This document shows, piece by piece, positions 15,251-32,459 of a DNA stretch of 32,942 bases (position 1 is its first letter; each line of letters starts with the position of its first letter). The DNA is from a virus, in the IMG/VR virus record IMGVR_UViG_3300031673_000291, positions 1 to 32,942 of that record; one strand, given 5' to 3'. Below the pieces are notes generated by a model, which did not search any database, was not told where the DNA came from, and saw nothing but the letters and a program-made list of their open reading frames with translations. Both the position numbers and the translations under genes were made by a program.

Positions 15251-15251
15251 A

Positions 15252-16577: not shown

Positions 16578-16585
16578 TTGACCTC

Positions 16586-16801: not shown

Positions 16802-16803
16802 TA

Positions 16804-16983
16804 TTATTCTACCAACCAAGAAGATCCGCAGATAGCACAGAACATTGCTGTTCCACGACCAGTTGAATCTACTATAGTCGTTCCAATTTTTTCTGAACCA
16901 CAATATGGACAAAACTCTATGTTTTCAAATACTTCTAGTTTATCTTTCTTTTTAGTTGATTTTCCTATTATATCTTCAAACAT
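16804..16983 (-). CDS. Small zinc-ribbon protein (59 residues)
   Basis: A 59-residue protein read from ATG at 16983 to TAA. It starts MFEDIIGKSTKKKDK, with CPYCGSEKIG and CAICGSSW, a four-cysteine ribbon. GGAGAG lies seven bases before the ATG, and the ATG overlaps the stop of the upstream HNH gene (TAATG). It is paralogous to the following gene, so the pair looks like a tandem duplication. The pair lies inside the prkA-yeaH-spoVR block. Confidence 0.75.
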   Translation of the reverse strand: MFEDIIGKSTKKKDKLEVFENIEFCPYCGSEKIGTTIVDSTGRGTAMFCAICGSSWLVE

Positions 16984-17819: not shown

Positions 17820-17820
17820 T

Positions 17821-19770
17821 TTATTCCTCTTTTCTTAAAACTTCCCCTATAAATTTCAATAAAACATTTGCGCATTCTTTACAATAACCTTTTTCTAAAA
17901 GATTTTTCAATGCTGATTCACGTCTCTTTTTTGCTTTTGGATTTGTGGTACTTGTATCAGCTAAGGAAAGTGAAACTACTGATTTCAAATCTGCCATAAG
18001 TTTCTTCTCTATTCCCTCTCGAAGAGGATCATAATCCTTATAAGTAAATTTTTGTCCTTTTTCAAGAGCTGCACTCTTATGTACAAAAATACTATTTCTA
18101 AATTCCTTCTTTGAATTTTCTGGAATACCTACAAGGTCCTCTATTGAACGCATTAGTTTTTCGTCAGGATCACTATATTCACCAGTAATTGAATCGAATA
18201 CTTTTTCTTTCTTACAAAAAGAAGATACATTAATCATATAGTTTTCAAATAGTGTTGTTGCTTGATCTTCATAAGCATATAGAAAAGCCATATTTACTTC
18301 TTTTTTCGCAATTTCTTTATATTCGGAAGCTACAGAATTTTTATCTCCTTGTAGAAGATTCAAATAAGTCTCTTTCTCTTCTTCAGTAATACCAATATGA
18401 TGATTAAAATTATCTCTTAAAGCTCTAATAATATCAATCGCATTTATACATTTTTTCTCTTCTTTCGATCCAAGAGTTACGTTCATTGCATTGATTATAA
18501 ACCTTGGAGATATACCTTTCATTCCTTCATTTTTTTCTTTTCCTTCTTGTCTGAGACCCTTTATATCTATTTCACTTTTCTTGAAAGCATCAGTTATTTC
18601 ACCATTATATAACTTCATTTTTTCTAGTTTACTAGTTACTGATGTTGATTCTTCTAACCTACTTAAAACGGCAAATTGAGCAGCTACCTTTAAAGTATTT
18701 GGCGCTATATGGATATCTCTAAAATCAGATTCTCTAATCATCTTTTTATAAATATTAATTTCATCATCTACTCGAACATTTAAAGGCACCATAATAGGAT
18801 ACATTCGATCATGTAAAGCTTCGTTCTTTTTGTCAGCTTTGAATATATCAAATTCTGTTTGATTTGTATGGGCCACTATTAATGTATCAATATATATTTG
18901 AGGAAAACCAGGTGACTTTATTAGTTGTTCTTGAGCTAGTGAAATAAGAACATATTGTAATTTAATATCTGTTTTTAATAACTCAATCATTTCTATCATA
19001 CCACCATTAGCAACCTGCAATTCTCCATCAAATTGAAAGGCTCTTGGATCAGATTCTCCCCATCTAGAAACTTTTGACATATTTATTTTTCCAATGAGTT
19101 CTGTAACATCCTGAGATTTTGGATCACTTGGTTGAAATGTTCCGATACCAACTCTTCTTTGTTCTGAAAAATAAATTTCTTTTACAGGAATATTCTCCCA
19201 ATTAACCACACCTTTAGTAGTATAGTCTTTATCTACTAATGATTGACATACTGGACAAAGAACTCCCTCTATTTTTACATTTAACTCTTTTTCCCAATAT
19301 GGTCTATCTAATAATGGAATTAAATGTAAAGGCTCTTCATGCAGTGGACATCCATCAATTACATATTTTGACAATTTATCACGTTCTAAACCTCTCTTTA
19401 AAAGAGCAGAAATTGTTGACTTACCACTACTTACTGGACCTACAAGAATCAAAATCCTTTTTCCTGTTTCTGTCCTTCTAGCTGCTGCTTTCAAAAATCT
19501 CATAATATCATGAAGCGATTCTTTAGTTCCATAAATTTTATCATCAAAGAAATTATATGTTATTAGATCCTCATAACCTCTTAGTTTAAATTCATCTTCT
19601 ACTTCACCAACCCCATGATTCATAATCATATTATAAACTCTTCCGGGTGCAAAATTACAAACCAATGGATTATCTTTAACTAGATGAAGATATTCAAGCA
19701 TCGTTCCTTTCCAGTCTTCTATCTCACGACCTTCTTTTTGAGCAGCGATTGCTTTTGTGAATTCATCCAT
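17821..19770 (-). CDS. prkA: PrkA / YeaG serine protein kinase
   Basis: A 649-residue protein, matching the family length (about 640). An N-terminal AAA+ domain has the Walker A motif GPVSSGKST (111-119), and CPLHEEPLHLIP is the conserved CPxHEEPL segment. A CPVC pair and RVGIGTFQPSDPKSQD follow. The C-terminal third corresponds to the kinase-like domain of PrkA. YeaG/PrkA phosphorylates Ser/Thr in stress, nitrogen starvation and sporulation responses. AAAGGAGG precedes the ATG, and an AGAACAAAT motif lies about 50 bases upstream, making it the first gene of the triad transcript. Confidence 0.92.
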   Translation of the reverse strand: MDEFTKAIAAQKEGREIEDWKGTMLEYLHLVKDNPLVCNFAPGRVYNMIMNHGVGEVEDEFKLRGYEDLITYNFFDDKIYGTKESLHDIMRFLKAAARRTETGKRILILVGPVSSGKSTISALLKRGLERDKLSKYVIDGCPLHEEPLHLIPLLDRPYWEKELNVKIEGVLCPVCQSLVDKDYTTKGVVNWENIPVKEIYFSEQRRVGIGTFQPSDPKSQDVTELIGKINMSKVSRWGESDPRAFQFDGELQVANGGMIEMIELLKTDIKLQYVLISLAQEQLIKSPGFPQIYIDTLIVAHTNQTEFDIFKADKKNEALHDRMYPIMVPLNVRVDDEINIYKKMIRESDFRDIHIAPNTLKVAAQFAVLSRLEESTSVTSKLEKMKLYNGEITDAFKKSEIDIKGLRQEGKEKNEGMKGISPRFIINAMNVTLGSKEEKKCINAIDIIRALRDNFNHHIGITEEEKETYLNLLQGDKNSVASEYKEIAKKEVNMAFLYAYEDQATTLFENYMINVSSFCKKEKVFDSITGEYSDPDEKLMRSIEDLVGIPENSKKEFRNSIFVHKSAALEKGQKFTYKDYDPLREGIEKKLMADLKSVVSLSLADTSTTNPKAKKRRESALKNLLEKGYCKECANVLLKFIGEVLRKEE

Positions 19771-22099: not shown

Positions 22100-22176
22100 C
22101 GGAGGATAGCTCAGTTTGGTAGAGCACTCGGTTTGGGTCCGAGGGGCCGAAGGTTCAAGTCCTGTTCTTCCGACCA
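22100..22176 (+). tRNA. tRNA-Pro (TGG)
   Basis: A full cloverleaf. The acceptor CGGAGGA pairs with TCTTCCG, the D-arm is GCTC/GAGC, and the anticodon stem CTCGG/CCGAG holds loop TTTGGGT, giving anticodon TGG. Discriminator A and an encoded CCA are present. The C1-G72 pair is typical of bacterial tRNA-Pro. Confidence 0.9.
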
Positions 22177-22195
22177 TACATTAAAGGAGATTAAA

Positions 22196-22321
22196 ATGGC
22201 AATAAAACAATGTACATGTGAACATGAATCTCAAGATAAAATACATGGAAAACATATGAGAGTTCATAATAAAACAGCCAATGGATATCGTTGTACTGTT
22301 TGTGGTAAAGATAAAACATAA
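22196..22321 (+). CDS. Small cysteine-rich protein
   Basis: A 41-residue protein starting at ATG 22196 after AAAGGAG, just downstream of tRNA-Pro. CTCEH near the N-terminus and CTVCGK near the C-terminus suggest one zinc site. A longer frame reading back through the tRNA gene is not credible. Not recognised. Confidence 0.6.
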   Translation: MAIKQCTCEHESQDKIHGKHMRVHNKTANGYRCTVCGKDKT

Positions 22322-22333
22322 AAGGAGATTAAA

Positions 22334-22552
22334 TTGAAAAGTCTTTATGAAGGTGAAAAGTATACAGAAGATGCATGTTCATTAAGTATAGAAGCAAGCG
22401 AAATTCTTAAACCAATGTTTAAAAAATATTTTGATAAAGGATATTCATTTAGAGAAATTTCTCATATTATAATTTCAGAAGTATATTCATTAGAATGTTT
22501 AGAAATTCTAAAAAAATCAGTAAAAGATCATAAAAAAAGTAAAAGTGGTTAG
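22334..22552 (+). CDS. Hypothetical protein (TTG start, amber stop)
   Basis: A 72-residue helical protein. It starts at TTG, seven bases after AAAGGAG, and ends with TAG. The amber stop matters because an amber-suppressor tRNA is encoded at 27842. Not recognised. It overlaps or abuts the next gene depending on which start the latter uses. Confidence 0.6.
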   Translation: MKSLYEGEKYTEDACSLSIEASEILKPMFKKYFDKGYSFREISHIIISEVYSLECLEILKKSVKDHKKSKSG

Positions 22553-22556
22553 AATT

Positions 22557-22760
22557 ATGATAGAACTTATTATAGCTTTTTTATTAGGCTGTTTATGGAC
22601 AAGAACATATTATGCTAGAATCAATACAAGAACTGATTGGATGCGGAGTTATGATTGGAGTAAAAATAAAATTTATCGAAAACTTCATCGACTCAATTGT
22701 GAGTTATGTCCAAAACGATGGTACTGTAAACAATATGAGGAACAAAATAAAAGTGATTAA
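22557..22760 (+). CDS. Small membrane protein
   Basis: A 67-residue protein with an N-terminal membrane helix (MIELIIAFLLGCLW) and a basic, aromatic tail containing CELCPKRWYC. The ATG at 22557 is used; a GTG at 22545 overlaps the previous gene. The ribosome site is weak, so coupling to the previous gene is likely. Not recognised. Confidence 0.6.
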   Translation: MIELIIAFLLGCLWTRTYYARINTRTDWMRSYDWSKNKIYRKLHRLNCELCPKRWYCKQYEEQNKSD

Positions 22761-22763
22761 TAT

Positions 22764-22853
22764 CTGAGTGTAGCTCAGTCTGGTCAGAGCACCCGGCCTG
22801 GAACCGGGAGGCCCAGTGGGGATCCGTAGGTTCGAATCCTACCACTCAGACCA
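22764..22853 (+). tRNA. tRNA, anticodon TGG by geometry (Pro) or GGA (Ser); long variable arm
   Basis: Acceptor CTGAGTG pairs with CACTCAG, D-stem GCTC/GAGC, anticodon stem CCCGG/CCGGG, loop CCTGGAA, a 17-base variable region with CCC/GGG, T-arm GTAGG/CCTAC, then ACCA. Loop geometry gives TGG but puts C, not U, at position 33. Shifting by one gives GGA with U33 but breaks the stem. C1-G72 and A73 favour Pro; the long arm favours Ser. Confidence 0.8.
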
Positions 22854-22878
22854 TTATTTAATTGAAAGGAGAATAGTT

Positions 22879-23091
22879 ATGATAAAACCGTGGAAAACAT
22901 ATTATTGTACAGATCATGACTTATTTGAGCCAACAGGTTGTGCGAGTGTTGTCAGTGCTATTGACAAAAAAAGTGCAAGAAAGAAATTAAGAAAGGTTCT
23001 TAAAGAACATGGACTAAATGAGAAAAAGGAATTCACTCTTACAAGACTAAAAGTAGGAGAAACTATTATTTTATATGATGGAAATTATTAA
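22879..23091 (+). CDS. Hypothetical protein
   Basis: A 70-residue protein starting at ATG 22879 after AAAGGAG, between two tRNA genes. It is basic in the middle (KKSARKKLRKVLKEHG) and ends in strands (TLTRLKVGETIILYDG). Not recognised. Frames reading back into the upstream tRNA are rejected. Confidence 0.62.
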   Translation: MIKPWKTYYCTDHDLFEPTGCASVVSAIDKKSARKKLRKVLKEHGLNEKKEFTLTRLKVGETIILYDGNY

Positions 23092-23098
23092 CTAAAAT

Positions 23099-23183
23099 GC
23101 TAGTGTGGCGTAACTGGTAGGCGCGCTGGTCTTAGGAATCAGTGGTTTAGGCCGTGTGGGTTCAACTCCCTCCACTAGCACCA
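23099..23183 (+). tRNA. tRNA-Leu (TAG)
   Basis: Acceptor GCTAGTG pairs with CACTAGC. The anticodon stem CTGGT/ATCAG holds loop CTTAGGA, anticodon TAG. A long variable arm is present, as expected for Leu, with A73 and an encoded CCA. One mismatch is seen in the T-stem. Confidence 0.9.
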
Positions 23184-23206
23184 AAACTAATTATAAAAGG
23201 AGATAT

Positions 23207-23365
23207 ATGGCTAAATATTTTGTTTCAATAAAAAATGAAAAAAATCAATATAAAATATTTAAAGTTAAAAAAGAAGTTTATACATATATTCACCAATTAG
23301 AAACTGCTATTAGATTTCCGCAAGAAAGTAAAATTAAGGATTTATATCCTGAAAGGTTTAAATAA
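23207..23365 (+). CDS. Hypothetical protein
   Basis: A 52-residue basic protein starting at ATG 23207 after AAAAGGAG, directly following tRNA-Leu. It alternates strands and helices, with SIKNEKNQYKIFKVKKEVYTYI. Not recognised. Confidence 0.55.
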   Translation: MAKYFVSIKNEKNQYKIFKVKKEVYTYIHQLETAIRFPQESKIKDLYPERFK

Positions 23366-23370
23366 CAATT

Positions 23371-23455
23371 GGCGATATGGTGGAATTGGTAGACACGCTG
23401 GCCTCAAATCCCAGTGCATAATTGCGTACAGGTTCGACTCCTGTTGTCGCCACCA
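23371..23455 (+). tRNA. tRNA-Leu (CAA)
   Basis: Acceptor GGCGATA pairs with TGTCGCC. The anticodon loop CTCAAAT gives anticodon CAA, with a C-C mismatch at the last stem pair. It has a long variable arm, A73 and CCA. The D-arm GGTGGAATTGGTAGACAC is of the usual Leu type. Confidence 0.88.
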
Positions 23456-23457
23456 AT

Positions 23458-23531
23458 GGGGGTATAGCTCAGGGGCCGAGCAGGAGGCTTTTAACCTTCA
23501 GACTGGGGTTCGATTCCCCATGCCCTCACCA
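23458..23531 (+). tRNA. tRNA-Lys (TTT)
   Basis: Only two bases after the previous tRNA. Acceptor GGGGGTA pairs with TGCCCTC, D-stem GCTC/GAGC, anticodon stem GGAGG/CCTTC with loop CTTTTAA, anticodon TTT, then A73 and CCA. The pair probably shares one precursor. Confidence 0.88.
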
Positions 23532-23551
23532 AAGATAAAAAAGGAGTGTAA

Positions 23552-23848
23552 ATGTTTTATGTTTATTTAGGTTTAGCAACAAGTACATCTATAAGTATAT
23601 TAGTATTATTTATTACTTTTTTAATATATCTGATAAAATTTAAAGAAAATATATTTGACTGTTATTGGCAGGGACCATTTTTTGAAACTATTATGGTATC
23701 TTTGTTAATACTTACAGTTTTTCCATTTACTATTTATATGTGTTGTTCAATGTTAAAAACAGACTGGAAAACAGAAAAACAGATATTAGAAAAAAAGAGA
23801 GAGAAAACACCTTGGTGGAAACTTAAAGAATTTGGGGGAAAATTATGA
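23552..23848 (+). CDS. Membrane protein, two helices
   Basis: A 98-residue protein with two hydrophobic segments (about residues 5-29 and 46-66) separated by a short loop, and a lysine-rich cytoplasmic-type tail. AAAGGAG precedes the ATG. The stop overlaps the next ATG (ATGA). Not recognised. The following gene encodes another small membrane protein, so the two may act together. Confidence 0.62.
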   Translation: MFYVYLGLATSTSISILVLFITFLIYLIKFKENIFDCYWQGPFFETIMVSLLILTVFPFTIYMCCSMLKTDWKTEKQILEKKREKTPWWKLKEFGGKL

Positions 23849-24021
23849 ATATACTGAATACATTATTTCTTTTATGTAGCACTGGTTTTTTCATATATAT
23901 GGCTGTAATATGGACAACAAGAGGAATTTATAATACTCTTATAAAATTATATTTGGTTACTTCTTATATAGCAGGTATAATTCTAATACTTTATAAATAT
24001 GGATATTTACTCAAAGTTTAA
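23845..24021 (+). CDS. Small membrane protein (58 residues)
   Basis: A 58-residue protein with two hydrophobic helices: LNTLFLLCSTGFFIYMAVIW, then LVTSYIAGIILILY. Its ATG overlaps the previous stop (ATGA), and its TAA ends at the base before a tRNA begins, so the message must be cut at the tRNA 5' end. Not recognised. Confidence 0.6.
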   Translation: MNILNTLFLLCSTGFFIYMAVIWTTRGIYNTLIKLYLVTSYIAGIILILYKYGYLLKV

Positions 24022-24096
24022 GCCGGTATAGCTCAAGCGGTAGAGCGGGTGACCTGTAATCATCTGACCGGGGTTCGACTCCTCGTATCGGCTCCA
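24022..24096 (+). tRNA. tRNA-Thr (TGT) with C33
   Basis: Acceptor GCCGGTA pairs with TATCGGC, D-stem GCTC/GAGC, anticodon stem GGTGA/TCATC, loop CCTGTAA, four-base variable region, T-stem CGGGG/CCTCG, then TCCA. The anticodon is TGT by geometry. Position 33 is C instead of the near-universal U. Reading GTA with U33 would break the stem, and tRNA-Tyr normally has a long arm. Confidence 0.85.
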
Positions 24097-24114
24097 TTTA
24101 AAAAGGAAAAATTA

Positions 24115-24474
24115 ATGGAAAAAATAGTAATTGAATATTGTGAAGATGGAATATATTTTTCAGATCAAGGATCATGGGAGTGGTTGTACGGACTTCAAAA
24201 TAATATTCTAAGAAACGGGGTTAAAAATCAACATATAAAAGTTTCAAGTGAATTAATGGTTGAACTAACTAGACTTCTTGTTATTAGAAAAATAATAAAA
24301 TCAGATCAAATAATATATAAGTATAAAGATGAATTTATTTCAATAAAGAAAGATGGTGGTTTAGTTAATTGGCCAAAAGGATTTTGTGACAATAAAGATT
24401 TAATATTAGAAGAACTTATTGATTTCAGATTTAAATTGAAAGGAAAAATAGATGAACACACCTCCAAAGATTGA
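24115..24474 (+). CDS. Hypothetical protein
   Basis: A 119-residue protein starting at ATG 24115 after AAAAGGA, just after tRNA-Thr. Upstream in-frame codons lie in the tRNA and are excluded. It has alternating helices and ends in a charged tail (LKGKIDEHTSKD). It overlaps the next small gene by 23 bases. Not recognised. Confidence 0.65.
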   Translation: MEKIVIEYCEDGIYFSDQGSWEWLYGLQNNILRNGVKNQHIKVSSELMVELTRLLVIRKIIKSDQIIYKYKDEFISIKKDGGLVNWPKGFCDNKDLILEELIDFRFKLKGKIDEHTSKD

Positions 24475-24613
24475 AACATGCAAAATATGTAAAAAGTTAT
24501 ATGATCCAAAAGAAACAAAGAGAATATATGGCGATATACCTGTATTGTATGGATGTTGTTCTTCAAGATGTTATACTAAATTACAAACTTCTGATAATAA
24601 ATTTTTAAAATAA
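24452..24613 (+). CDS. Small zinc-binding protein (53 residues)
   Basis: A 53-residue protein with CKIC (about residues 10-13) and GCCSSRC (about 34-40), like a treble-clef or FCS-type finger. AAAGGA precedes the ATG, inside the end of the upstream gene. Possibly nucleic-acid binding. Not recognised further. Confidence 0.6.
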   Translation: MNTPPKIETCKICKKLYDPKETKRIYGDIPVLYGCCSSRCYTKLQTSDNKFLK

Positions 24614-24624
24614 AGGAGTAAATA

Positions 24625-24768
24625 ATGAAAAAAGAATTACTAGAAAAAATGAATAATATTTACAAAGAATTTGGAATTGATATTCATATAATACCCAACT
24701 CATTACAATCTCAAATAAACTTACTTGTTAAAGAGATTATAAAACTAAGAAGAAAAAAGGAAAAATAG
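24625..24768 (+). CDS. Small helical protein (47 residues), amber stop
   Basis: A 47-residue helical protein ending in a basic stretch (KLRRKKEK). AAAGGAG lies before the ATG. It stops at TAG directly followed by the ATG of the next gene, with no gap. Suppression of this TAG would fuse the two proteins in frame. Not recognised. Confidence 0.55.
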   Translation: MKKELLEKMNNIYKEFGIDIHIIPNSLQSQINLLVKEIIKLRRKKEK

Positions 24769-25122
24769 ATGAGCACATCACCGATGATTAAAGAGATGTT
24801 AAAAAAATATGAAGAACAAAATGGAAAAGAAAATACTTTCGAACTTATAGAATTTTTAATAAATTCATATCTTAGTATTATTGAACAATTTGGAATATCT
24901 TTATTAAAAAACGGAGTACAAAGTCAAGATATTGAACAAGTAATTTTCCAGTTAATTATAAGTAATAATAGAAAACGAAATACATATCAAACTGCTGATG
25001 ATGATAAGAAACAAGTTATGGATGCGTTAGGTGAATTTCTTTCATCTGGTGTTATGTCTACCATTATATTAGCCTATCAAGAATATAATAAATGGGATAA
25101 TGCACCAAAAACTTTACAGTAA
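24769..25122 (+). CDS. Hypothetical protein
   Basis: A 117-residue, mostly helical acidic protein. It is in the same frame as the preceding 47-residue gene and separated from it only by the TAG, so readthrough would give a 165-residue fusion. AAAAGGA lies near the end of the upstream gene as its ribosome site. Not recognised. Confidence 0.65.
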   Translation: MSTSPMIKEMLKKYEEQNGKENTFELIEFLINSYLSIIEQFGISLLKNGVQSQDIEQVIFQLIISNNRKRNTYQTADDDKKQVMDALGEFLSSGVMSTIILAYQEYNKWDNAPKTLQ

Positions 25123-25154
25123 TTGTTTTAAATTATAGCCCCGTTAAAGATTAT

Positions 25155-25239
25155 GGGGGTGTTGTCTAGAGGTCTAAGACACAGGGCTTTGAACCCTGGG
25201 CTTATAGCTTCGTAGGTTCGAATCCTACCGCCCCTTCCA
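25155..25239 (+). tRNA. tRNA-Gln (TTG) with long variable arm
   Basis: Acceptor GGGGGTG pairs with CGCCCCT (ending in a G-T pair), D-stem GTCT/AGAC, anticodon stem CAGGG/CCCTG, loop CTTTGAA, anticodon TTG, and a 13-base variable region with GCT/AGC, then TCCA. Gln tRNAs normally have a short variable loop. Ser (TGA) would need a shifted loop that breaks the stem. Confidence 0.82.
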
Positions 25240-25249
25240 CATCTTTCTA

Positions 25250-25258
25250 AGAACAAAA
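25250..25258 (+). promoter_or_regulatory. AGAACAAAA variant motif before HNH gene
   Basis: One-base variant (AGAACAAAA) of the recurrent motif, 28 bases before the HNH start at 25286. It also forms part of a CTAAGAA/TTCTTAG hairpin. Confidence 0.35.
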
Positions 25259-25285
25259 TTAAAATTCTTAGGTGGGGTAATAAAT

Positions 25286-25936
25286 ATGGATCTTTGTAAT
25301 TTCGGTTGTGGAAACCAAGCTTCTTATGTTTTTAAAAATGGAAAGAATTGTTGTTCAGAATTTGTAGTACAATGTCCAGAAGTCAGAAGGAAAAATTCTT
25401 TAAAAATCAAAGGTAAACAATATTGTTATAAATCAAAAGTAACATATTTAAATAAAAATTATAAATATTATTGTATATATTGTGGAAAACCTTTAATAAA
25501 TAAGTTTAATAAAAATGTACATGAAATTGTATGTTCAATGAATCCAAAAAATGTAAAATTTTGTTATTGTGGAAATATTATTCTTAATAAAACAAGCAGA
25601 ACATGTTCTTACTATTGTTCTAATAAAATATTTAAAAATCAAAAAAAGAAAAAAGACTTGAGTATAGATAAACATAGAGATATTGCTTTTCGGTATCATA
25701 GAAAACAATGTATTATTTGTAATGAAAAAAATATTGTAGAAGTACATCATTATGACAATAATCACTATAATAATAATCCGATTAATTTTATACCTTTATG
25801 TCCAACACATCATAAATATGTACATAGTAAATATAAAATTTTAATACAAGATAAAATTAATATATACTACAAAAACTTTAAAAGGATTTTTGATCACTGG
25901 ATAAGACATAATAGTAATTTTATTGTTGAAGACTAA
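25286..25936 (+). CDS. HNH endonuclease with N-terminal zinc module
   Basis: A 216-residue protein. N-terminal module CNFGCGNQASYVFKNGKNCC (residues 4-23); then zinc pairs CIYCGK, CYCGN and CSYYC; and a C-terminal classical HNH domain CIICNEKNIVEVHHYDNN with INFIPLCPTHHKYVH. The middle and HNH parts closely parallel the 31380-31997 gene. Probably a free-standing homing endonuclease placed between tRNA genes, with its own upstream motif. Confidence 0.85.
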   Translation: MDLCNFGCGNQASYVFKNGKNCCSEFVVQCPEVRRKNSLKIKGKQYCYKSKVTYLNKNYKYYCIYCGKPLINKFNKNVHEIVCSMNPKNVKFCYCGNIILNKTSRTCSYYCSNKIFKNQKKKKDLSIDKHRDIAFRYHRKQCIICNEKNIVEVHHYDNNHYNNNPINFIPLCPTHHKYVHSKYKILIQDKINIYYKNFKRIFDHWIRHNSNFIVED

Positions 25937-25957
25937 TATGATAAACAGGAGAAGAAT

Positions 25958-26389
25958 TTGGAAACATTAAAAACGTGTCATGATTGTGGAGCAAAAGAAG
26001 GAGAACTCCACTATATTGGTTGTGATTATGAAAGATGTCCATTTTGTGGCGGACAGTTGTTAGCTTGTGGTTGTTGTTATACAGAACTAGGTTTTGATTA
26101 TGGGTGGAATAAAGAACCTTATTGTGGTTTACCCAAAGACATTTATGAAAATGGATTACCTCCTGATCTTGAAGAAAAATGGGAAAATATTCTCAATGAA
26201 AAAGGGAGAGTTCCATATATATTTTATCCAAATGTATGTGCAAGATGTGGAAAATTAATGCCAGATTTGTTTCAAGTTTCTAATGAAGAATGGGAGCATT
26301 ATATTGAGATAGGTGAAAGAAAAAATGTTATTTGTAGAGAATGTTATAATTACATCAAAAAAATCATTGATGAAAATACAGGAACTTAA
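25958..26389 (+). CDS. Multi-zinc-ribbon protein
   Basis: A 143-residue protein starting at TTG 25958 after AGGAGAAG. Cysteine pairs: CHDCG, CPFCGGQ with CGCCY, CARCGK and CREC. The central [16 protein letters not shown] is typical of small phage ribbons. No catalytic motif is seen. Function unknown. Confidence 0.65.
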
Positions 26390-26392
26390 AAC

Positions 26393-26480
26393 GGTGAGGT
26401 GCTCGAGTGGTCTAAAAGAGCGGTTTGCTAAATCGTCGGGTGTAACAGCCCCGTAGGTTCGAATCCTACCCTCACCGCCA
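26393..26480 (+). tRNA. tRNA-Ser (GCT)
   Basis: Acceptor GGTGAGG pairs with CCTCACC. The anticodon stem GCGGT/ATCGT holds loop TTGCTAA, anticodon GCT. It has a long variable arm, T-arm GTAGG/CCTAC, G73 (usual for Ser) and CCA. Confidence 0.9.
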
Positions 26481-26497
26481 TATTAAAAGGAGTAAAA

Positions 26498-26701
26498 ATG
26501 GCTGCAATTATTATTGATAGGTGTGGACAATTGTGTCCATTCTTTGAATGCGATGATCGTATTCATAACATAAAATCAAGATGTTTTTTAGATCCAACAT
26601 TATCAACTTGGCGATATTTTGAACCTCAAGAAAAAGGAAGTATGCCAAAAAACTGTCCTATGAAAAGACGAAAACAAGTTAAAGTAATATTTAAGGAGTG
26701 A
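26498..26701 (+). CDS. Cysteine-rich small protein
   Basis: A 67-residue protein with CGQLCPFFECDD near the start, a single Cys in the middle (RCFLDP) and NCPMKRRK near the end. It follows tRNA-Ser with an AAAAGGAG site. Possibly metal-binding. Not recognised. Confidence 0.6.
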   Translation: MAAIIIDRCGQLCPFFECDDRIHNIKSRCFLDPTLSTWRYFEPQEKGSMPKNCPMKRRKQVKVIFKE

Positions 26702-26705
26702 AATA

Positions 26706-27074
26706 ATGAGACCTGAGAATGCAGATGTTACATATTGGCAAGTTCAAGCACAATGGACAACAAATAAGAAAGATAAAAAATGGTTTTTTCATACTTATTG
26801 TGATCTTGTTACTTCAAAAACATATGGTAAATATAAAAATAATGACGATGATCCTTCAGCATGTGGAAATTGTTGGCAAATATATGGAATAAATGGAGTG
26901 TTAAATGAAGAAGCTGGAATTAAATGGTTAGAATTAGTTAGAAGAGAAAACAGACTTCAAGAACAGAATTCACCAGATAGAATTCCAATATGGGGTAGAC
27001 ATAAACATATTCCAGTGAAATTTCGTTTAGCTAAAATTCATATTATAAAGACTACAGAAGAATTAAACATTTAA
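26706..27074 (+). CDS. Hypothetical protein
   Basis: A 122-residue protein with AAGGAG before the ATG, four bases after the previous stop. It is rich in aromatic residues (TYWQVQAQW, KKWFFHTYCD) with a single CGNC pair. Not recognised. Confidence 0.65.
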   Translation: MRPENADVTYWQVQAQWTTNKKDKKWFFHTYCDLVTSKTYGKYKNNDDDPSACGNCWQIYGINGVLNEEAGIKWLELVRRENRLQEQNSPDRIPIWGRHKHIPVKFRLAKIHIIKTTEELNI

Positions 27075-27098
27075 ATTAGATGTTTACCAAAACTTTTT

Positions 27099-27107
27099 AG
27101 AACAAAT
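27099..27107 (+). promoter_or_regulatory. AGAACAAAT motif before a leader ORF and hairpin
   Basis: Exact motif preceded by TTTTT, followed by ATATGTATT and then, within 35 bases, AAAGGAG and a very short leader ORF. Confidence 0.45.
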
Positions 27108-27139
27108 ATATGTATTAAAAAATCAAAGGAGATTATAAT

Positions 27140-27154
27140 ATGCGTCGATCATAG
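27140..27154 (+). other. Possible four-codon leader ORF ending in amber
   Basis: AAAGGAG, eight bases of spacing, then ATG CGT CGA TCA TAG. In this frame the next two stops are also TAG (27170 and 27224), with no TAA or TGA until the frame is well inside the next gene. It may be a regulatory leader. There is no proof of translation. Confidence 0.35.
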
Positions 27155-27187
27155 ATTTTTATACCGCCGTAGATTAACGAGTCTCGT

Positions 27188-27248
27188 GGTCCTCCCTCTC
27201 AAACTCTTCTTGGTAATGTTACTTAGAAAATAGTAGGAGGGAGAGACC
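27188..27248 (+). promoter_or_regulatory. Hairpin hiding the ribosome site of the 27249 gene
   Basis: GGTCCTCCCTC (27188-27198) pairs with GAGGGAGAGACC (27237-27248), 11 pairs with one bulged A. The 3' strand contains the GGAGGGAG ribosome site and ends at the base before the ATG, so folding would block initiation. The loop is about 38 bases. Confidence 0.65.
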
Positions 27249-27572
27249 ATGATACATCCATTTACAAAAGTAAAAATTTCTCAGAAGGAAAAAGCTCAAA
27301 AAATCAGAGATTTTAAATTCTGTAGAAAAGCAAAAAATAGAGTTGGAAATCCTGCATTACAAAATTTATTTGATAATGCATGGAAAGTATTTCGTATTAG
27401 TTGGGAATATAGACACACTCATATTGCTTATTGTGAAATCAGAGGCAAAGAGCGATCTCAAATTGAAATTCCCAGAGAAGATAATCTACCCAATGAAAAT
27501 AAAATTTCAAAAATTAAAGATTCCATTCTTAAAGAGATTGAAGAACATGAAGCTCTACGTAGTAGTTCGTAA
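27249..27572 (+). CDS. Hypothetical protein under hairpin control
   Basis: A 107-residue basic protein, not recognised. It is notable for the strong stem-loop that covers its ribosome site. Its end overlaps the Pth2-like gene by 26 bases, so the hairpin may control both. It contains helices rich in Lys, Arg and Glu (SKIKDSILKEIEEHEAL). Confidence 0.65.
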   Translation: MIHPFTKVKISQKEKAQKIRDFKFCRKAKNRVGNPALQNLFDNAWKVFRISWEYRHTHIAYCEIRGKERSQIEIPREDNLPNENKISKIKDSILKEIEEHEALRSSS

Positions 27573-27834
27573 CGATTTATCACAATCTCAAAAGTCTGTA
27601 CAAGCAGGACATGCAATTGCAGAGTTTCTACTTCATAGACAAACAAAATGGGATAATGGAACTCTTATAATTCTAGGGGTAGATAATAAACAAGAACTTG
27701 AAAAATTAACATATCGGTTAGATATGAGAAGTATTGATTGGGTTGGATTTAAAGAACCTGATATTGGTAATGAAATAACAGCCATTGCTTCAGATCAAAG
27801 ATGCAGGCTATTTTCTAATTTAAAACTAGTTTAA
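27547..27834 (+). CDS. Pth2-like peptidyl-tRNA hydrolase
   Basis: A 95-residue protein starting at ATG 27547 inside the end of the upstream gene. MKLYVVVRNDLSQSQKSVQAGHA matches the Pth2 start (V(V/L)RxDLxMxxGKxAAQxxHA), followed by WDNGTLIILGVDNKQELEKL and an end that aligns with the TAIA segment. Pth2 releases peptides from stalled peptidyl-tRNA and is typical of archaea, eukaryotes and some phages. The usual length is about 115, so this is a short version. It lies just before the suppressor tRNA, consistent with a role in phage translation. Confidence 0.65.
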   Translation: MKLYVVVRNDLSQSQKSVQAGHAIAEFLLHRQTKWDNGTLIILGVDNKQELEKLTYRLDMRSIDWVGFKEPDIGNEITAIASDQRCRLFSNLKLV

Positions 27835-27841
27835 ATAGTGA

Positions 27842-27919
27842 TGGTCAGTAGCTTAGTCTGGTCTAAAGCCGAGGTCTCTAAAACCTTGATCGTGGGTTCG
27901 AATCCCATCTGGCCAACCA
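27842..27919 (+). tRNA. Amber-suppressor tRNA (anticodon CTA)
   Basis: Acceptor TGGTCAG pairs with CTGGCCA, D-stem GCTT/AAGC, anticodon stem GAGGT/ACCTT, loop CTCTAAA with U33, anticodon CTA, four-base variable region, T-arm GTGGG/CCCAT, A73 and CCA. CTA reads UAG. The loop differs by one base from that of tRNA-Trp (CTCCAAA), and U1-A72 occurs in Gln tRNAs, so the amino acid is uncertain. Confidence 0.88.
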
Positions 27920-27932
27920 AGTAAAGGAGAAT

Positions 27933-28235
27933 ATGAAAAATTCTACTGGAAAATATTATACAGATAAAGAACCAGATCGTTCAAATTGTCCAAGTAGAAG
28001 ATGGATGGTGGGGATAGGGCAGGGTATCTGGTGTAGTAATGAGAAAAATAAGGGCAAAGATTTAGAGCAGGGTATTCATAGAAATTTTAATCAACCATTG
28101 TTACCATTTTCATATGCTTTTGTTTGTGATAACTATAACGGAAAGATTGAATGGAAACTTACATATTGTAAAGTTGAAGATTTACCAGATTTACCACCAT
28201 ATCCATTTGTTAAAGAAGAACTGAATAAGAAATAA
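27933..28235 (+). CDS. Hypothetical protein
   Basis: A 100-residue protein after AAAGGAG, following the suppressor tRNA. It is rich in aromatic residues and proline near the C-terminus (LPDLPPYPFVKEE). Not recognised. Confidence 0.62.
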   Translation: MKNSTGKYYTDKEPDRSNCPSRRWMVGIGQGIWCSNEKNKGKDLEQGIHRNFNQPLLPFSYAFVCDNYNGKIEWKLTYCKVEDLPDLPPYPFVKEELNKK

Positions 28236-28242
28236 AATATAT

Positions 28243-28326
28243 GACTCTGTCGTCTAGTAATACTAGTAGGGAAGGACGCTGGCAACGCGCTAGTACGATG
28301 GGTTCGAGTCCTATCCGGAGTCATCA
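28243..28326 (+). tRNA. Aberrant tRNA, anticodon ACG by geometry; hairpin in D-loop
   Basis: Acceptor GACTCTG pairs with CGGAGTC, D-stem GTCT/GGAC around an 18-base loop in which CTAGT pairs with ACTAG, anticodon stem GCTGG/CTAGT with loop CAACGCG (A at 33), a six-base T-stem GATGGG/CCTATC, then A and TCA instead of CCA. May be a degenerate or specialised tRNA. It is a sibling of the next one. Confidence 0.6.
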
Positions 28327-28333
28327 AACATAT

Positions 28334-28418
28334 GGTTCTGTATTCTAGTAGTACTAGTTGGAGCAGACGCTAGTTTGGAGCTAGAGGTGATGGGTTCGAT
28401 CCCCATTCAGAACCTCCA
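28334..28418 (+). tRNA. Aberrant tRNA, anticodon TGG by geometry; hairpin in D-loop
   Basis: Acceptor GGTTCTG pairs with CAGAACC, a weak D-stem with a long loop holding CTAGT/ACTAG, anticodon loop TTTGGAG on a four-pair CTAG/CTAG stem, T-arm ATGGG/CCCAT with one extra base, then TCCA. It is homologous to the 28243 tRNA over most of its length. It would be a further TGG tRNA if functional. Confidence 0.65.
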
Positions 28419-28469
28419 ATTAATGAAAAAGAGAGTAGTGATCCTATAAGGATAACCATATCATTTTTA

Positions 28470-28478
28470 AGAACAAAT
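28470..28478 (+). promoter_or_regulatory. AGAACAAAT motif before endonuclease gene
   Basis: Exact motif preceded by ATTTTTA and followed by AAATAAAAAGG, 14 bases before the ATG at 28492. Confidence 0.45.
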
Positions 28479-28491
28479 AAATAAAAAGGTT

Positions 28492-29448
28492 ATGGATATG
28501 GAATTATGTCATTATGGGTGTGGACAAAAAGCAAAATTTATTTTCAAAAATGGAAAATTATGTTGTTCAAAAAATCATAAACAATGTCCAAATAAAAAAG
28601 AATCTAAACATGATTATAAAAATGATAAATCACACAAAAAAGTAAATTGTAAATACTGTAATAAAGAATTCTTTTATTCAAATTTAAAACAACATGAATC
28701 ATCATGCTATTTAAAACCAGAAAACATAAGAACCTGTTTAAATTGCAGAAAAATATTAAATGGCCGCGATCAAAAAAAATATTGTTCAAAAAAATGCTTT
28801 GCTTCCCATACACATACAACAAAAAAGAAAAAACAATCAAAAGAGACTAAAAGAAAAATTAGTACAAGTGTTAAAAATATTTCACCAACTAGATCAGATG
28901 CATTAAAAAAACCAGTTATGATAGAGATTAAATGCCCAATTTGTGGTAATATTAAAAAAATTAAAACAACAGCACCTGGTTCATTTAGTAAAACAAAATC
29001 TTGTTCTAAAAAATGTTTAAGTAAACTTTTATCGAAAAAATCAATAGAAAGTGGTTGTGGTGGTTATCGAGAAGGTTCTGGTCGTAGTAAAAGTGGTTAT
29101 TACAAAGGAGTGTATTGTGGTAGTAGTTATGAATTAATATTTTTAGTATATCATTTGAATATAGGGTCAAATATTAAAAGATGTAAATTAAAAATACCGT
29201 ATACATATAACGGGCAAAATCATCATTATTATCCTGATTTTGAAATAGATAATATTATATATGAAATAAAAGGGTTTTATAATAAAATTGTAGATATTAA
29301 AACTAATGCAGTAATTAATGCAGGTTATAAAATAGAAGTTTTATATTTAAAAGATCTTCAACCAATGTTAGACTGTATTAAAAATAAATTTAAAATAAAA
29401 AATATAATAAAACTATATGAACAAAAAACGCTTCTGTCTTCTAGTTAG
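28492..29448 (+). CDS. PD-(D/E)XK-type endonuclease with shared zinc module
   Basis: A 318-residue protein. N-terminal module CHYGCGQKAKFIFKNGKLCC (6-25); zinc pairs CKYCNKEF, CLNCRK, CSKKC and CPICGN; a NUMOD3-like stretch (KETKRKISTSVKN); then a C-terminal domain with SYELIFLVYHL, YYPDFEIDNIIYEIKGFYNK, a PD-(D/E)xK nuclease core (PDF...EIK) instead of HNH. The last codons and the TAG stop lie inside the following tRNA-Glu gene. Likely a homing-type endonuclease. Confidence 0.8.
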   Translation: MDMELCHYGCGQKAKFIFKNGKLCCSKNHKQCPNKKESKHDYKNDKSHKKVNCKYCNKEFFYSNLKQHESSCYLKPENIRTCLNCRKILNGRDQKKYCSKKCFASHTHTTKKKKQSKETKRKISTSVKNISPTRSDALKKPVMIEIKCPICGNIKKIKTTAPGSFSKTKSCSKKCLSKLLSKKSIESGCGGYREGSGRSKSGYYKGVYCGSSYELIFLVYHLNIGSNIKRCKLKIPYTYNGQNHHYYPDFEIDNIIYEIKGFYNKIVDIKTNAVINAGYKIEVLYLKDLQPMLDCIKNKFKIKNIIKLYEQKTLLSSS

Positions 29449-29507
29449 GCTTAGGATGTTAGACCTTCAATCTAATGACACCAGTTCAAATCTGGTCAGA
29501 AGCACCA
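29430..29507 (+). tRNA. tRNA-Glu (TTC) with C33
   Basis: Acceptor GCTTCTG pairs with CAGAAGC, D-stem TTCT/AGGA, anticodon stem TTAGA/TCTAA, loop CCTTCAA, anticodon TTC, T-arm ACCAG/CTGGT, A73 and CCA. C replaces U at position 33, and there is one extra base before the anticodon stem. The 5' 19 bases overlap the endonuclease gene. Confidence 0.85.
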
Positions 29508-29517
29508 ATTAAAATTC

Positions 29518-29596
29518 GGTGGTGTAGTCTAGTTTGGTCGATGACGCCGGGTTGTCAGCTCGGAGAACGCGGGTTCAAATCCCGCCATCACCGCCA
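29518..29596 (+). tRNA. tRNA-Asp (GTC)
   Basis: Acceptor GGTGGTG pairs with CATCACC, D-stem GTC/GAC, anticodon stem CCGGG/CTCGG, loop TTGTCAG, anticodon GTC, T-arm CGGG/CCCG, G73 as in bacterial Asp, and CCA. Confidence 0.9.
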
Positions 29597-29604
29597 TTAA
29601 CAAA

Positions 29605-29689
29605 GGGGGAATAGACGAACTGGTCTAGTCAATGGGTTTAAGCCCCATGCGTTTAACGCGTCCGGGTTCGACTCCCGGTTCCCCTACCA
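29605..29689 (+). tRNA. tRNA-Leu (TAA)
   Basis: Acceptor GGGGGAA pairs with TTCCCCT (ending in a G-T pair), D-stem GAC/GTC, anticodon stem ATGGG/CCCAT, loop TTTAAGC, anticodon TAA. It has a long variable arm (GCGTTTAACGC), T-arm CCGGG/CCCGG, A73 and CCA. Confidence 0.9.
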
Positions 29690-29813
29690 TTTTTGATTGA
29701 AGGTTGAAAAAAATATAATTCAAAGAGAAATTAGTAGACGGAGTAATGAATGAAGCAAAAAACATATTGGGGATATATATTTAATAACCAGAAATCATAA
29801 AGGAGAAGATTTA

Positions 29814-30134
29814 CTGAAAACAAATGAAGTTTTAAAGATTTTTGGATATTCAAAAAATACTTATATTAATAATACTAAAATATATCCATTTATACAACTA
29901 ATAACACATACACATCCAGTTCAATATTGGAAAATAAGAAATAATGAGGTTGCTGTTCTATATAAAGATTTACCAGATGCTATAAAAAAACGGATAGGGT
30001 CCTTAACGACTAACATTCAACATACATCACATTATTTCAACATTATAGATCCAGATAATAAAATAAGATATTTTATTAGAGAAGAACGAATCCCATTTTG
30101 GAAATTAGCAAAATATGGCGGATATATTATATAA
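29814..30134 (+). CDS. Hypothetical protein with non-ATG (CTG) start
   Basis: An open frame of 106 codons that contains no methionine codon. AAGGAG lies eight bases before a CTG in frame, the best start. The product begins LKTNEVLKIFGYSKNTYIN, with the look of a helix-turn-helix, then NNEVAVLYKDLPDAIKKRI, and ends KLAKYGGYII. The frame uses codons like its neighbours. It could be a gene started at CTG, or a pseudogene whose ATG became CTG. The DNA between the tRNA end (29690) and this frame holds no other signal. Confidence 0.5.
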   Translation: MKTNEVLKIFGYSKNTYINNTKIYPFIQLITHTHPVQYWKIRNNEVAVLYKDLPDAIKKRIGSLTTNIQHTSHYFNIIDPDNKIRYFIREERIPFWKLAKYGGYII

Positions 30135-30145
30135 AGGAGAATAAC

Positions 30146-30298
30146 ATGGAAGTTTTAGAAATTAAAGAACTTGAAGATGGTGGTGCAACAATAGAATTAG
30201 AAATGACAGAAGAAGAAAATAATCTTCTGGTGGGTTATGCTGTAAATAATATTTTAAAAAAATCCATTAAGGAGTTAGAAGATGCAGATAACGCTTGA
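30146..30298 (+). CDS. Small acidic protein (50 residues)
   Basis: Starts at ATG 30146 after AAAGGAG. An acidic, mostly helical product (LEIKELEDGGATIELEMTEE). The end overlaps the next gene by 17 bases. Not recognised. Confidence 0.6.
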   Translation: MEVLEIKELEDGGATIELEMTEEENNLLVGYAVNNILKKSIKELEDADNA

Positions 30299-30482
30299 AG
30301 AAAGTTTAGATCTTATTTCTAAACTACAAACAAAATTTAATAATTCTGGTAGCCCAAAAGATAGATATGCATATGTTGCAGCAATAGAAAAAGAATCAAA
30401 AGATATATTAGATTCAATAACAAAAATTAAAGAAGAATATCATAATATTTTTATTAGTTCAGTGATTGATATTGAACGATAA
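30282..30482 (+). CDS. Small helical protein
   Basis: A 66-residue helical protein with AAGGAG before the ATG, inside the end of the previous gene. Likely coiled-coil (KEYxxI spacing). Not recognised. Confidence 0.58.
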   Translation: MQITLEESLDLISKLQTKFNNSGSPKDRYAYVAAIEKESKDILDSITKIKEEYHNIFISSVIDIER

Positions 30483-30804
30483 CACTGTTTTTATCCAACC
30501 ATTATATCATTATAAGAATACGATAGATATGAATATGAAAAAAGCATATCCTTCAGATCAATATTTTTTAATAAGACTTATTAAGTATGGTAAAATAACA
30601 ATGGAGGACTATCATATACAAATGGGTTATATGTCAGGATATAAGAAGTGTTGTATTGATAATTTTATTAAATTATTAAATTATGGTCCCAGCAAGTTTG
30701 TTGGAGTAAGTGCATACATGGATAAAAAATATGGTTCAGACTTAAAGGAAATACACCATGTAAGGTGTAAAAAATGTCGTGTTATTAAAAAGGAGATAAA
30801 ATGA
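30466..30804 (+). CDS. Hypothetical cysteine-containing protein
   Basis: A 112-residue frame whose first possible start is TTG at 30466 in the end of the previous gene. An internal ATG near 30530 gives a shorter product. Neither has a good ribosome site. It contains YKKCC and CKKCR near the C-terminus. Not recognised. Confidence 0.5.
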   Translation: MILNDNTVFIQPLYHYKNTIDMNMKKAYPSDQYFLIRLIKYGKITMEDYHIQMGYMSGYKKCCIDNFIKLLNYGPSKFVGVSAYMDKKYGSDLKEIHHVRCKKCRVIKKEIK

Positions 30805-31043
30805 GAATTAAATGTTCTGCATGCGGACAAGTTCATGATAGTGACGTATTTCCTTTTAAACATAATACTGTAAAAGCAACAAATGAAAGACGTCAAGTTT
30901 TAAATACTAATCTTCTTCTACCTAATCTTGTTTTAAATATTAAAGAAGCAGAAGCTAAGTTTGTTTGTAAACATTGTCTTGCACCAAATTTTGTAGTTTT
31001 AAGATGGCAGTCAATAGTTGAAGAAGATAAGAACGAATCGTAA
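30801..31043 (+). CDS. Zinc-ribbon protein
   Basis: An 80-residue protein with CSACGQ (5-10) and CKHC (about 55-58), a four-cysteine ribbon separated by a helical insert. AAAGGAG precedes the ATG, which overlaps the previous stop. It ends four bases before tRNA-Ile. Confidence 0.65.
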   Translation: MRIKCSACGQVHDSDVFPFKHNTVKATNERRQVLNTNLLLPNLVLNIKEAEAKFVCKHCLAPNFVVLRWQSIVEEDKNES

Positions 31044-31047
31044 ATTT

Positions 31048-31124
31048 AGCGGGGTAGCTCAGTTGTGTAGAGCACTGTCTTGATAAGGCAGGGGTCGTGG
31101 GTTCAAATCCCTCCCTCGCTACCA
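31048..31124 (+). tRNA. tRNA-Ile (GAT)
   Basis: Acceptor AGCGGGG pairs with CCTCGCT, D-stem GCTC/GAGC, anticodon stem CTGTC/GGCAG, loop TTGATAA, anticodon GAT, T-arm GTGGG/CCCTC, A73 and CCA. Confidence 0.9.
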
Positions 31125-31144
31125 AATTTTAAAGAGGTTTTAAA

Positions 31145-31252
31145 ATGAGAAATTTAGTCATTCTATCAATCATTGTGGTTGTTATTTATGGTGTTGCTTA
31201 TTGGAGATTTCATAAAACAAATAAACAACTCAATGATGATAAAAAGAAATAA
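31145..31252 (+). CDS. Single-span membrane peptide (35 residues)
   Basis: A 35-residue product: one membrane helix (LVILSIIVVVIYGVAYW) with a short charged tail. AGAGG lies ahead of the ATG. It lies between tRNA-Ile and the initiator tRNA. Not recognised. Confidence 0.5.
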   Translation: MRNLVILSIIVVVIYGVAYWRFHKTNKQLNDDKKK

Positions 31253-31256
31253 CTGA

Positions 31257-31331
31257 CGCGGGTTGGGGGAGTTGGTCGTCCCCGCTGGGCTCATATCCCG
31301 GAAATCACGGGTTCGAATCCCGTACCCGCTA
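31257..31331 (+). tRNA. Initiator tRNA-fMet (CAT)
   Basis: The acceptor CGCGGGT faces ACCCGCT, so C1 is opposite U72, unpaired. D-stem GGGG/CCCC; anticodon stem CTGGG/CCCGG with the three G-C pairs next to the loop that mark initiators; loop CTCATAT, anticodon CAT; T-arm ACGGG/CCCGT; A73. CCA is not encoded. Unpaired C1 and the GGG/CCC stem distinguish it from elongator Met. Confidence 0.85.
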
Positions 31332-31379: not shown

Positions 31380-31997
31380 ATGTTATGTTCATATGGTTGT
31401 GGTAAAGAAGCAAAATATCAATTTAAGAATGGGAAGTGGTGTTGTTCTTCTCATTCTGCATCATGTCCTGAAATTCGTTTAAAAAATTCTAGAAGGAATA
31501 CTGGCGATAGAAAAAATAGATACAAAGTTTCTATTGAAAACAAAAAAGAAAGTAGCTGTAAATTTTGTAATAAAATAATATATACACCTGGATTAAAACC
31601 TCATGAAAAATTTTGTTATTTAAATCCAAAAAATAAAAAAGAATGTCCTGTATGTGGAAAGCCAATTAAAAAATATAGGATAAATAAAACATGTTCTGCA
31701 AAATGCGGAGTATTAATATCAAAAAATGAAAGTTGTGCAGAAAAAAATTCAGGAAACTCTTTACAATATAGATTAATATGTTTTAAATATCATGGTAAAA
31801 AATGTTTGATATGTAAAGAAGAATTAATAGTTCAAGCTCATCATTTAGATGGTAATAGAGCAAACAACATTCCAGAAAATCTTATTCCTGTATGTCCAAC
31901 ACATCATGCATATTGTCATCATAAAAAATATTGGTATATCATAAAAGAATATATTGAAAAATATATTGAAAAATTTAAAAACGAAAGGATGTATTAG
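31380..31997 (+). CDS. HNH endonuclease with N-terminal zinc module
   Basis: A 205-residue protein. Module CSYGCGKEAKYQFKNGKWCC (3-22); finger CKFCNK; CPVCGKPIKKYRINKTCSAKC; and a classical HNH end: CLICKEELIVQAHHLDGN with NLIPVCPTHHAYCHHKK. Close to the 25286-25936 gene in layout and HNH sequence. It stops at TAG, two bases before the next ATG. Probably a homing endonuclease. Confidence 0.85.
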   Translation: MLCSYGCGKEAKYQFKNGKWCCSSHSASCPEIRLKNSRRNTGDRKNRYKVSIENKKESSCKFCNKIIYTPGLKPHEKFCYLNPKNKKECPVCGKPIKKYRINKTCSAKCGVLISKNESCAEKNSGNSLQYRLICFKYHGKKCLICKEELIVQAHHLDGNRANNIPENLIPVCPTHHAYCHHKKYWYIIKEYIEKYIEKFKNERMY

Positions 31998-32378: not shown

Positions 32379-32459
32379 CTCTCTGTATCCCCTCTGGCTT
32401 CGAACCAGGTGAAAGGGTAATTTGGACACATGGAGGTTCGAGTCCTCTCAGGGAGACCA
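32379..32459 (+). tRNA. tRNA-like, anticodon TCG (Arg), without a normal D-arm
   Basis: Acceptor CTCTCTG pairs with CAGGGAG, followed by TA and only TCCCC before a stem TCTGG/CCAGG with loop CTTCGAA (anticodon TCG if this is the anticodon arm). Then 22 bases containing GGG, T-arm GGAGG/CCTCT with loop TTCGAGT, A73 and CCA. The CCC/GGG pairing would place the hairpin where a D-loop should be. Confidence 0.55.

Follow-up and report, generated by a model that had tools for sequence, protein, structure and literature searches.

The tRNA(CUA) gene followed up here is genuine and, judging from its sequence, plainly under selection, and it belongs to a cassette whose other members are a short leader interrupted by in-frame UAG codons, a small helical protein and a Pth2-like protein. 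We consider it rather probable that the leader senses amber suppression: readthrough of its UAGs would bring a ribosome to a Pro-Pro pause, the paused ribosome would open a hairpin, and the helical and Pth2-like proteins would be switched on. The window, by which we mean the whole stretch of DNA analysed, is the complete 32,942-base virus record IMGVR_UViG_3300031673_000291, and is probably a fragment. The relevant features all lie on the plus strand:

22100-31331, plus strand: array of 14 tRNAs holding the tRNA(CUA) (ARAGORN)
27125-27131, plus strand: Shine-Dalgarno AAAGGAG of the leader, read directly from the sequence
27140-27226, plus strand: leader ORF with in-frame UAGs at 27152, 27170 and 27224
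27184-27252, plus strand: predicted hairpin covering the Shine-Dalgarno and start of the gene at 27249
27185-27196, plus strand: RGPP codons CGT GGT CCT CCC, of which CCTCCC also pairs with the downstream Shine-Dalgarno
27235-27240, plus strand: Shine-Dalgarno AGGAGG of the gene at 27249, inside the hairpin (sequence and pairing)
27249-27572, plus strand: small helical protein of 107 aa, overlapping the start of the Pth2-like gene (homologues in most cassettes; structural model)
27547-27834, plus strand: Pth2-like protein of 95 aa, ending 7 nt before the tRNA(CUA) (structural model, fold matches and profiles)
27842-27919, plus strand: amber-suppressor tRNA with anticodon CUA and an encoded CCA (ARAGORN, Rfam, covariation among five homologues)

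ARAGORN placed a CTA-anticodon tRNA at precisely 27842-27919, and the Rfam tRNA model matched it with 59.3 bits (E 1.4e-10) and a complete cloverleaf. Its shape is that of an ordinary bacterial tRNA, with a 7-bp acceptor stem, a GTTCGAA T-loop and an encoded CCA. In an alignment of the window gene with four homologues from related phages (G001, G030, G036 and G037), the 21 stem pairs were all kept in the five sequences, 12 pairs showed compensatory changes (a result that 0 of 500 shuffles attained) and the anticodon loop CTCTAAA was invariant. Compensatory changes in the stems together with a loop that never varies argue that this gene has been selected as a UAG-reading tRNA. The original prediction of a phage-encoded amber suppressor, which had been made from a well-formed cloverleaf with loop CTCTAAA and anticodon CTA, is thus upheld by ARAGORN, by Rfam and by the covariation. 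The label 'Pyl' given by ARAGORN derives from the anticodon alone, and a tRNA-Pyl identity was ruled out by the ordinary shape, the match to the ordinary tRNA model and the lack of a match to tRNA-synt_2, the one PylRS-related family searched for in the window and nine related contigs. Identification of the charging enzyme had also been proposed, and the three synthetase families searched gave no match. The acceptor and discriminator bases vary among the homologues, as do the nearest other tRNAs, and gave no prediction of the amino acid that the tRNA(CUA) would insert.

The order of the tRNA array is largely common to G001 and G030; G001 holds 29 tRNAs, and in both relatives a phage-encoded tmRNA follows the tRNA(CUA). 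Relatives were recovered through the window DNA polymerase (5651-8872), and comprise the 248-kb phage G001 (59% identity) and 27 further loci. Homologous tRNA(CUA) genes are found in five phages of this polymerase group, namely the window, G001, G030, G036 and G037, and each of the two main branches of the polymerase tree includes carriers.

Other elements of the window and its relatives deserve a record of their own. Between the tRNA(CUA) and tRNA-Glu, the place occupied by the tmRNA in G001 and G030, the window has two tRNA-like elements (28251-28326 and 28334-28416) with hairpin-expanded D arms and a common palindrome CTAGTA(A/G)TACTAG; neither was called by ARAGORN, and the second gave a weak tRNA-Sec match of 23.9 bits, below the cut-off. 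A sub-threshold tRNA (28 bits) at 32379-32456 apparently contains an inserted hairpin, CTGGCTTCGAACCAG. Within the array or next to it lie three HNH or endonuclease-like ORFs (25286-25936, 28492-29448 and 31380-31997), which have a similar Cys-rich N-terminus (YGCG...) and resemble free-standing homing endonucleases. Further upstream, 13715-19770 carries PrkA/YeaH/SpoVR-like phage genes; the PrkA-like protein is about 30% identical to proteins of Thermus phages and huge phages and 63-75% identical to those of 22 IMG/VR contigs, and a scan of genome contigs with it, as a lead to the host, gave no match. An RF-1 domain was absent from the window, G001 and G030, and among related phages was seen only in short ORFs of ArfB-like size in G036 (55342-55530) and G028 (172238-172501), which are possible ribosome-rescue factors.

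The central observation concerns the stretch just upstream of the helical gene, where three in-frame UAGs (27152, 27170 and 27224) had been overlooked in the original prediction. The window leader reads M-R-R-S-UAG-I-F-I-P-P-UAG-I-N-E-S-R-G-P-P-...-UAG, its codons after the ATG being CGT CGA TCA TAG ATT TTT ATA CCG CCG TAG ATT AAC GAG TCT CGT GGT CCT CCC, and every stop in this frame up to the next gene is a UAG; the result is an upstream ORF ending in or near R-x-P-P. The layout is common to the four relatives, with MKETEY-UAG-IKIPP-UAG-AQPRGPP in G036, ...EWDD-UAG-VKRPDT-UAG-VNVRGPP in G001, ...WTDD-UAG-LAQSQFP-UAG-ICRGPP in G030 and MT-UAG-VNQQRPP-stop in G037. RGPP is written with different codons among the relatives (CGT GGT CCT CCC, AGA GGG CCT CCT, CGT GGA CCT CCT or AGA GGT CCT CCG), and IPP as ATA CCG CCG or ATC CCT CCA. 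Such synonymous codons for R, G, I and P point to conservation past the UAGs at the level of the peptide. The leader peptide beyond the UAGs thus appears conserved, which in turn implies that ribosomes read through the leader UAGs. By these comparisons it is a real UAG-containing coding element, a short leader upstream of the tRNA(CUA) neighbourhood whose function would be regulatory.

In the predicted fold of this region, the CCTCC of the leader Pro codons pairs with the Shine-Dalgarno of the gene at 27249. The hairpin has a minimum free energy of −35.4 kcal/mol (z −4.9), 0 of 200 shuffles were as strong, and the probability that the Shine-Dalgarno is paired is 0.83. Over 36 loci, the mean pairing probability was 0.81 vs 0.63 for shuffled sequences (Wilcoxon p 6e-6), the centre of the pairing partner lying some 2-20 nt away from the first Pro codon, and in a minority of these loci predicted sequestration was no better than in the shuffles. 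About 65 nt separate Pro-Pro from the next start (10-90%: 57-78).

The gene thus covered encodes the helical protein, which was modelled with pLDDT 91 as three long helices and gave neither a Pfam nor a PDB fold match. The modelled product of 27547-27834 (pLDDT 89.8) has a Pth2 fold, for which peptidyl-tRNA hydrolysis is the putative activity. Its 14 best PDB fold matches all belong to the Pth2 family (E 6e-7 to 1e-4), Foldseek giving archaeal Pth2 with E 6e-7 and TMq 0.78; in addition, a profile match was obtained to a solved peptidyl-tRNA hydrolase, and the G001 homologue scored above the cut-off for Pfam PTH2. Besides the fold, the window protein shares with Pth2 (PF01981) the signature R-D-L...A-V-Q-A-G-H-A, although most of the solved Pth2 chains it matched are longer (103-135 aa, compared with about 95 aa). 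In 5/5 carriers the helical and the Pth2-like gene precede the tRNA(CUA), and neither was found in related contigs lacking this tRNA, with the exception of G021, where a Pth2-like gene is present and the contig ends just after it.

The association extends well beyond this polymerase group. A scan with the Pth2-like alignment, blind to the tRNA, gave 68 loci from diverse phages, or 69 with the window; near-duplicates in this set (L311/L312 and L294/L295) and the four relatives already described leave the picture unchanged. A tRNA(CUA) was present in 59 of the 69 loci, and 56 of these tRNA genes followed on the same strand at no more than 1 kb downstream, 23 of them within 20 nt. A strict leader motif (ATG, up to 8 codons, TAG, 1-8 codons, Pro-Pro and a stop) occurred upstream of the Pth2-like gene in 28/69 loci, vs an expectation of 0.1 derived from the remainder of these sequences, and its TAA and TGA versions not once. 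With a relaxed motif of the form ATG-UAG-(K/R)PP, including a Shine-Dalgarno and a nearby Lys or Arg, the count rose to 37/69 vs 0.09 expected, again with 0 for TAA and TGA; about half of the loci lack a leader by this test, some perhaps for reasons of detection. Simple leaders such as MN-UAG-VNKPP-stop are common, and in many relatives KPP or RPP is followed directly by the stop.

A leader-only DNA pattern, applied to the viral collection without any protein homology, matched 14 loci, 11 of which had a tRNA(CUA) within 1.6 kb and 13 either this tRNA or a Pth2-like gene. In most of them the helical protein is encoded first, with a start 52-63 nt behind the leader, and in one case it is fused to Pth2; in several loci the tRNA(CUA) lies upstream of the leader. 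The 735-kb huge-phage genome LR756503 has two tRNA(CUA) genes, and MS-UAG-SRPP-stop precedes them by about 0.6 kb. These results indicate that leader, helical protein and suppressor tRNA belong together, with Pth2 as the usual fourth member. The cultured phage ME3 has a tRNA annotated as CUA and a Pth2-like gene, but its loop is CCCTAAA and no leader was found; the stretches examined in XacN1, CM1, pT24 and Lak likewise gave no leader.

Some loci show variant arrangements. In L342, L345, L350 and L351, UAG-KPP leaders lie downstream of the tRNA(CUA) and the gene controlled would still be a small protein, of other or diverged sequence in the last three. In L337, L339 and L340, the gene behind the UAG leader encodes a small protein of another family (TYTY... 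type), and two tandem tRNA(CUA) genes lie downstream.

From this arrangement we infer readthrough in vivo, a pause at Pro-Pro and a switching on of the genes behind the leader. Without suppression, the ribosome would leave the leader at its first UAG, and the helical gene, with its Shine-Dalgarno hidden in the hairpin, would stay silent. With enough charged tRNA(CUA), the UAG or UAGs would be read through and the ribosome would reach Pro-Pro, within RGPP in the window. Paused at R-G-P-P or K-P-P, it would sit on the 5′ arm of the hairpin, the Shine-Dalgarno would be exposed, and the helical and Pth2-like proteins would be made. Leaders with two UAGs would require two suppression events and might therefore respond more steeply. 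R-A-P-P and R-A-G-P are established ribosome-arrest motifs in regulatory uORFs (PMC10951233, PMC9426467), and since R-G-P-P and K-P-P differ from the proven R-A-P-P, pausing at the leader is an assumption made by analogy. The purpose is likely feedback or damage control, suppressor readthrough of ordinary stops leaving non-stop translation complexes for tmRNA to clear (PMC3985003), and chances seem about even that the whole is a widespread phage circuit gauging nonsense suppression, in which the helical and Pth2-like proteins restrain the linked tRNA(CUA) or clean up after it. More speculatively, the two proteins could feed back on suppression, for instance through cleavage of peptidyl-tRNA by Pth2, and this feedback might hold suppression at a level that the phage can bear, given that TAG still terminates about a tenth of its genes.

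A possible though somewhat unlikely alternative is that the tRNA(CUA) acts mainly on the host, readthrough of host UAGs weakening host or defence proteins while the leader cassette trims the activity. Such a role has been proposed generally for phage suppressors, and readthrough of host stops has been suggested as counter-defence for other phages (PMC7886860); in this line, the phage genes keep TAG stops and would need protection. Suppressor readthrough of ordinary stops is known to yield non-stop complexes, which are tmRNA substrates (PMC3985003), and the tmRNA neighbours could clear such non-stop products. A host-directed role is, however, compatible with a suppression-sensing leader, and does not exclude that reading.

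It is improbable that the leader senses termination by RF1 instead, so that a ribosome awaiting RF1 at the UAG would hold the hairpin open and the tRNA would prolong the wait. Autoregulation of prfB (RF2) at an in-frame UGA offers a precedent, and in minimal leaders (M-x-UAG-V-x-K-P-P-stop) the inferred geometry would let a ribosome at the UAG reach the edge of the anti-Shine-Dalgarno. Nevertheless, peptide conservation beyond the UAG needs translation past it, as do two-UAG leaders whose first UAG lies at least 10 codons upstream of the hairpin, and the cassette is linked to a suppressor tRNA rather than to a release factor.

The original prediction had looked for late or structural genes in which TAG is recoded or suppressed, and for a fusion of two proteins across the stop at 24768. 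That reading now has very little probability and is already largely refuted, despite the existence of the tRNA(CUA) and the few window genes that end in TAG. The four TAG stops it had named (22552, 24768, 29448 and 31997) all exist, although the TAG-ended gene at 13185-13679 on the minus strand had escaped notice. The survey of stop-codon use that it proposed was made in the five tRNA(CUA) carriers, where TAG ends about 8-22% of predicted genes as a normal stop. Among the 61 TAG-ended genes having orthologues in these carriers, none has an orthologue running across the TAG; there are 43 cases in which an orthologue shares the C-terminus, 38 of them with TAA or TGA as the orthologue's stop, the clearest example in the window being that same conserved minus-strand gene. 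In the large genomes, coding coverage gains only about 1% under code 15, which is also what relatives without tRNA(CUA) show. In less gene-dense fragments the gain is a few per cent, with about as much from reading TGA as sense, and in one of them, the gene-poor G036, it is slightly above that of relatives without the tRNA. Readthrough at 24768 would indeed put two frames into one product, but the second ORF is equipped with an AAAGGA of its own and, immediately behind the TAG, an ATG, which makes this an ordinary stop-start junction. Altogether, spanning orthologues, C-termini, coverage and this junction leave recoding in late genes unsupported, and by sequence comparison TAG is a genuine stop across the tRNA(CUA) lineage, in a phage without TAG recoding.

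Several candidates for recoding were rejected along the way. The long code-15 ORFs of G001 (ATPase with VWA protein, RNAP beta-prime, Band_7 with RNase H) are separate neighbouring genes, split by their own starts or by domain boundaries, and TAG-spanning blast matches were short shadow ORFs that disappeared when only non-overlapping genes were used. TAG stops are rarer than background in CTA-bearing genomes but also in several without the tRNA, so that TAG avoidance is uninformative as a signature.

Finally, that the tRNA(CUA) is a mere passenger in its large array, or the beginning of a code change without function yet, is hardly credible and already strongly disfavoured: it does sit in an array of 14 (29 in G001), and pre-emergent suppressors without reassignment have been described (PMC7886860), but the compensatory changes in its stems around a CUA loop that never varies, its occurrence on either main branch of the polymerase phylogeny and its tight linkage to the leader cassette show long-term selection.

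It is already known that phages encode suppressor tRNAs, at times without recoding, and that arrest-peptide uORFs exist. A UAG-gated leader linked to a suppressor tRNA was not found described in the open literature searched, and what would be new is leader-peptide control with nonsense suppression as its input. Code-15 phages (Lak, crAss-like and jumbo) likewise encode a tRNA(CUA) of ordinary bacterial shape, which in those reports was tied to recoded genes or, in non-recoded cases, regarded as incipient change (PMC7886860, PMC13037316, PMC10879173); the window phage differs in having no sense recoding of its genes, and the UAGs read would be those of a short leader. The Xanthomonas phage XacN1 has two CUA suppressors in a large tRNA array and, like the window phage, no recoded genes, and its authors found no targets (PMC5852040). 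In contrast to the window cassette, this cultured phage has no UAG-PP leader upstream of its suppressor tRNAs, and the cassette therefore does not directly explain XacN1. For the many phages with UAG-reading tRNAs but without recoded genes, what the tRNAs read had been left open (PMC5852040, PMC7886860), and the UAG-interrupted leader offers a concrete conserved target together with a testable mechanism. If true, the mechanism would account for the coexistence of a suppressor with TAG as the stop of about a tenth of the phage's genes. The cassette moreover defines two partner proteins for study, the helical and the Pth2-like ones, and the leader sequence can serve as a signature by which to recognise functional suppressor systems in metagenomes.

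With arrest-peptide uORFs such as SecM, ApdA/ApdP and CruR, the leader shares a short upstream ORF with Arg-x-Pro-Pro before the regulated gene (PMC10951233, PMC9426467). The differences are that in the phage leader the arrest motif would be gated by at least one in-frame UAG, that it reads R-G-P-P or K-P-P and not R-A-P-P, and that the leaders have mostly 7-50 codons. In SecM-type uORFs a hairpin hides the downstream Shine-Dalgarno, as the predicted hairpin of the window would (z −4.9; p 6e-6 over the 36 loci). A second parallel is the autoregulation of prfB, in which a +1 frameshift occurs at an in-frame stop codon (UGA) within the RF2 gene. There an in-frame stop codon is a sensor of translation termination, through frameshifting in the RF2 gene itself; the phage leader, with its linked suppressor tRNA, would use such a codon in a similar way but through suppression of UAG, which, if true, would make it a natural sensor of stop-codon suppression.
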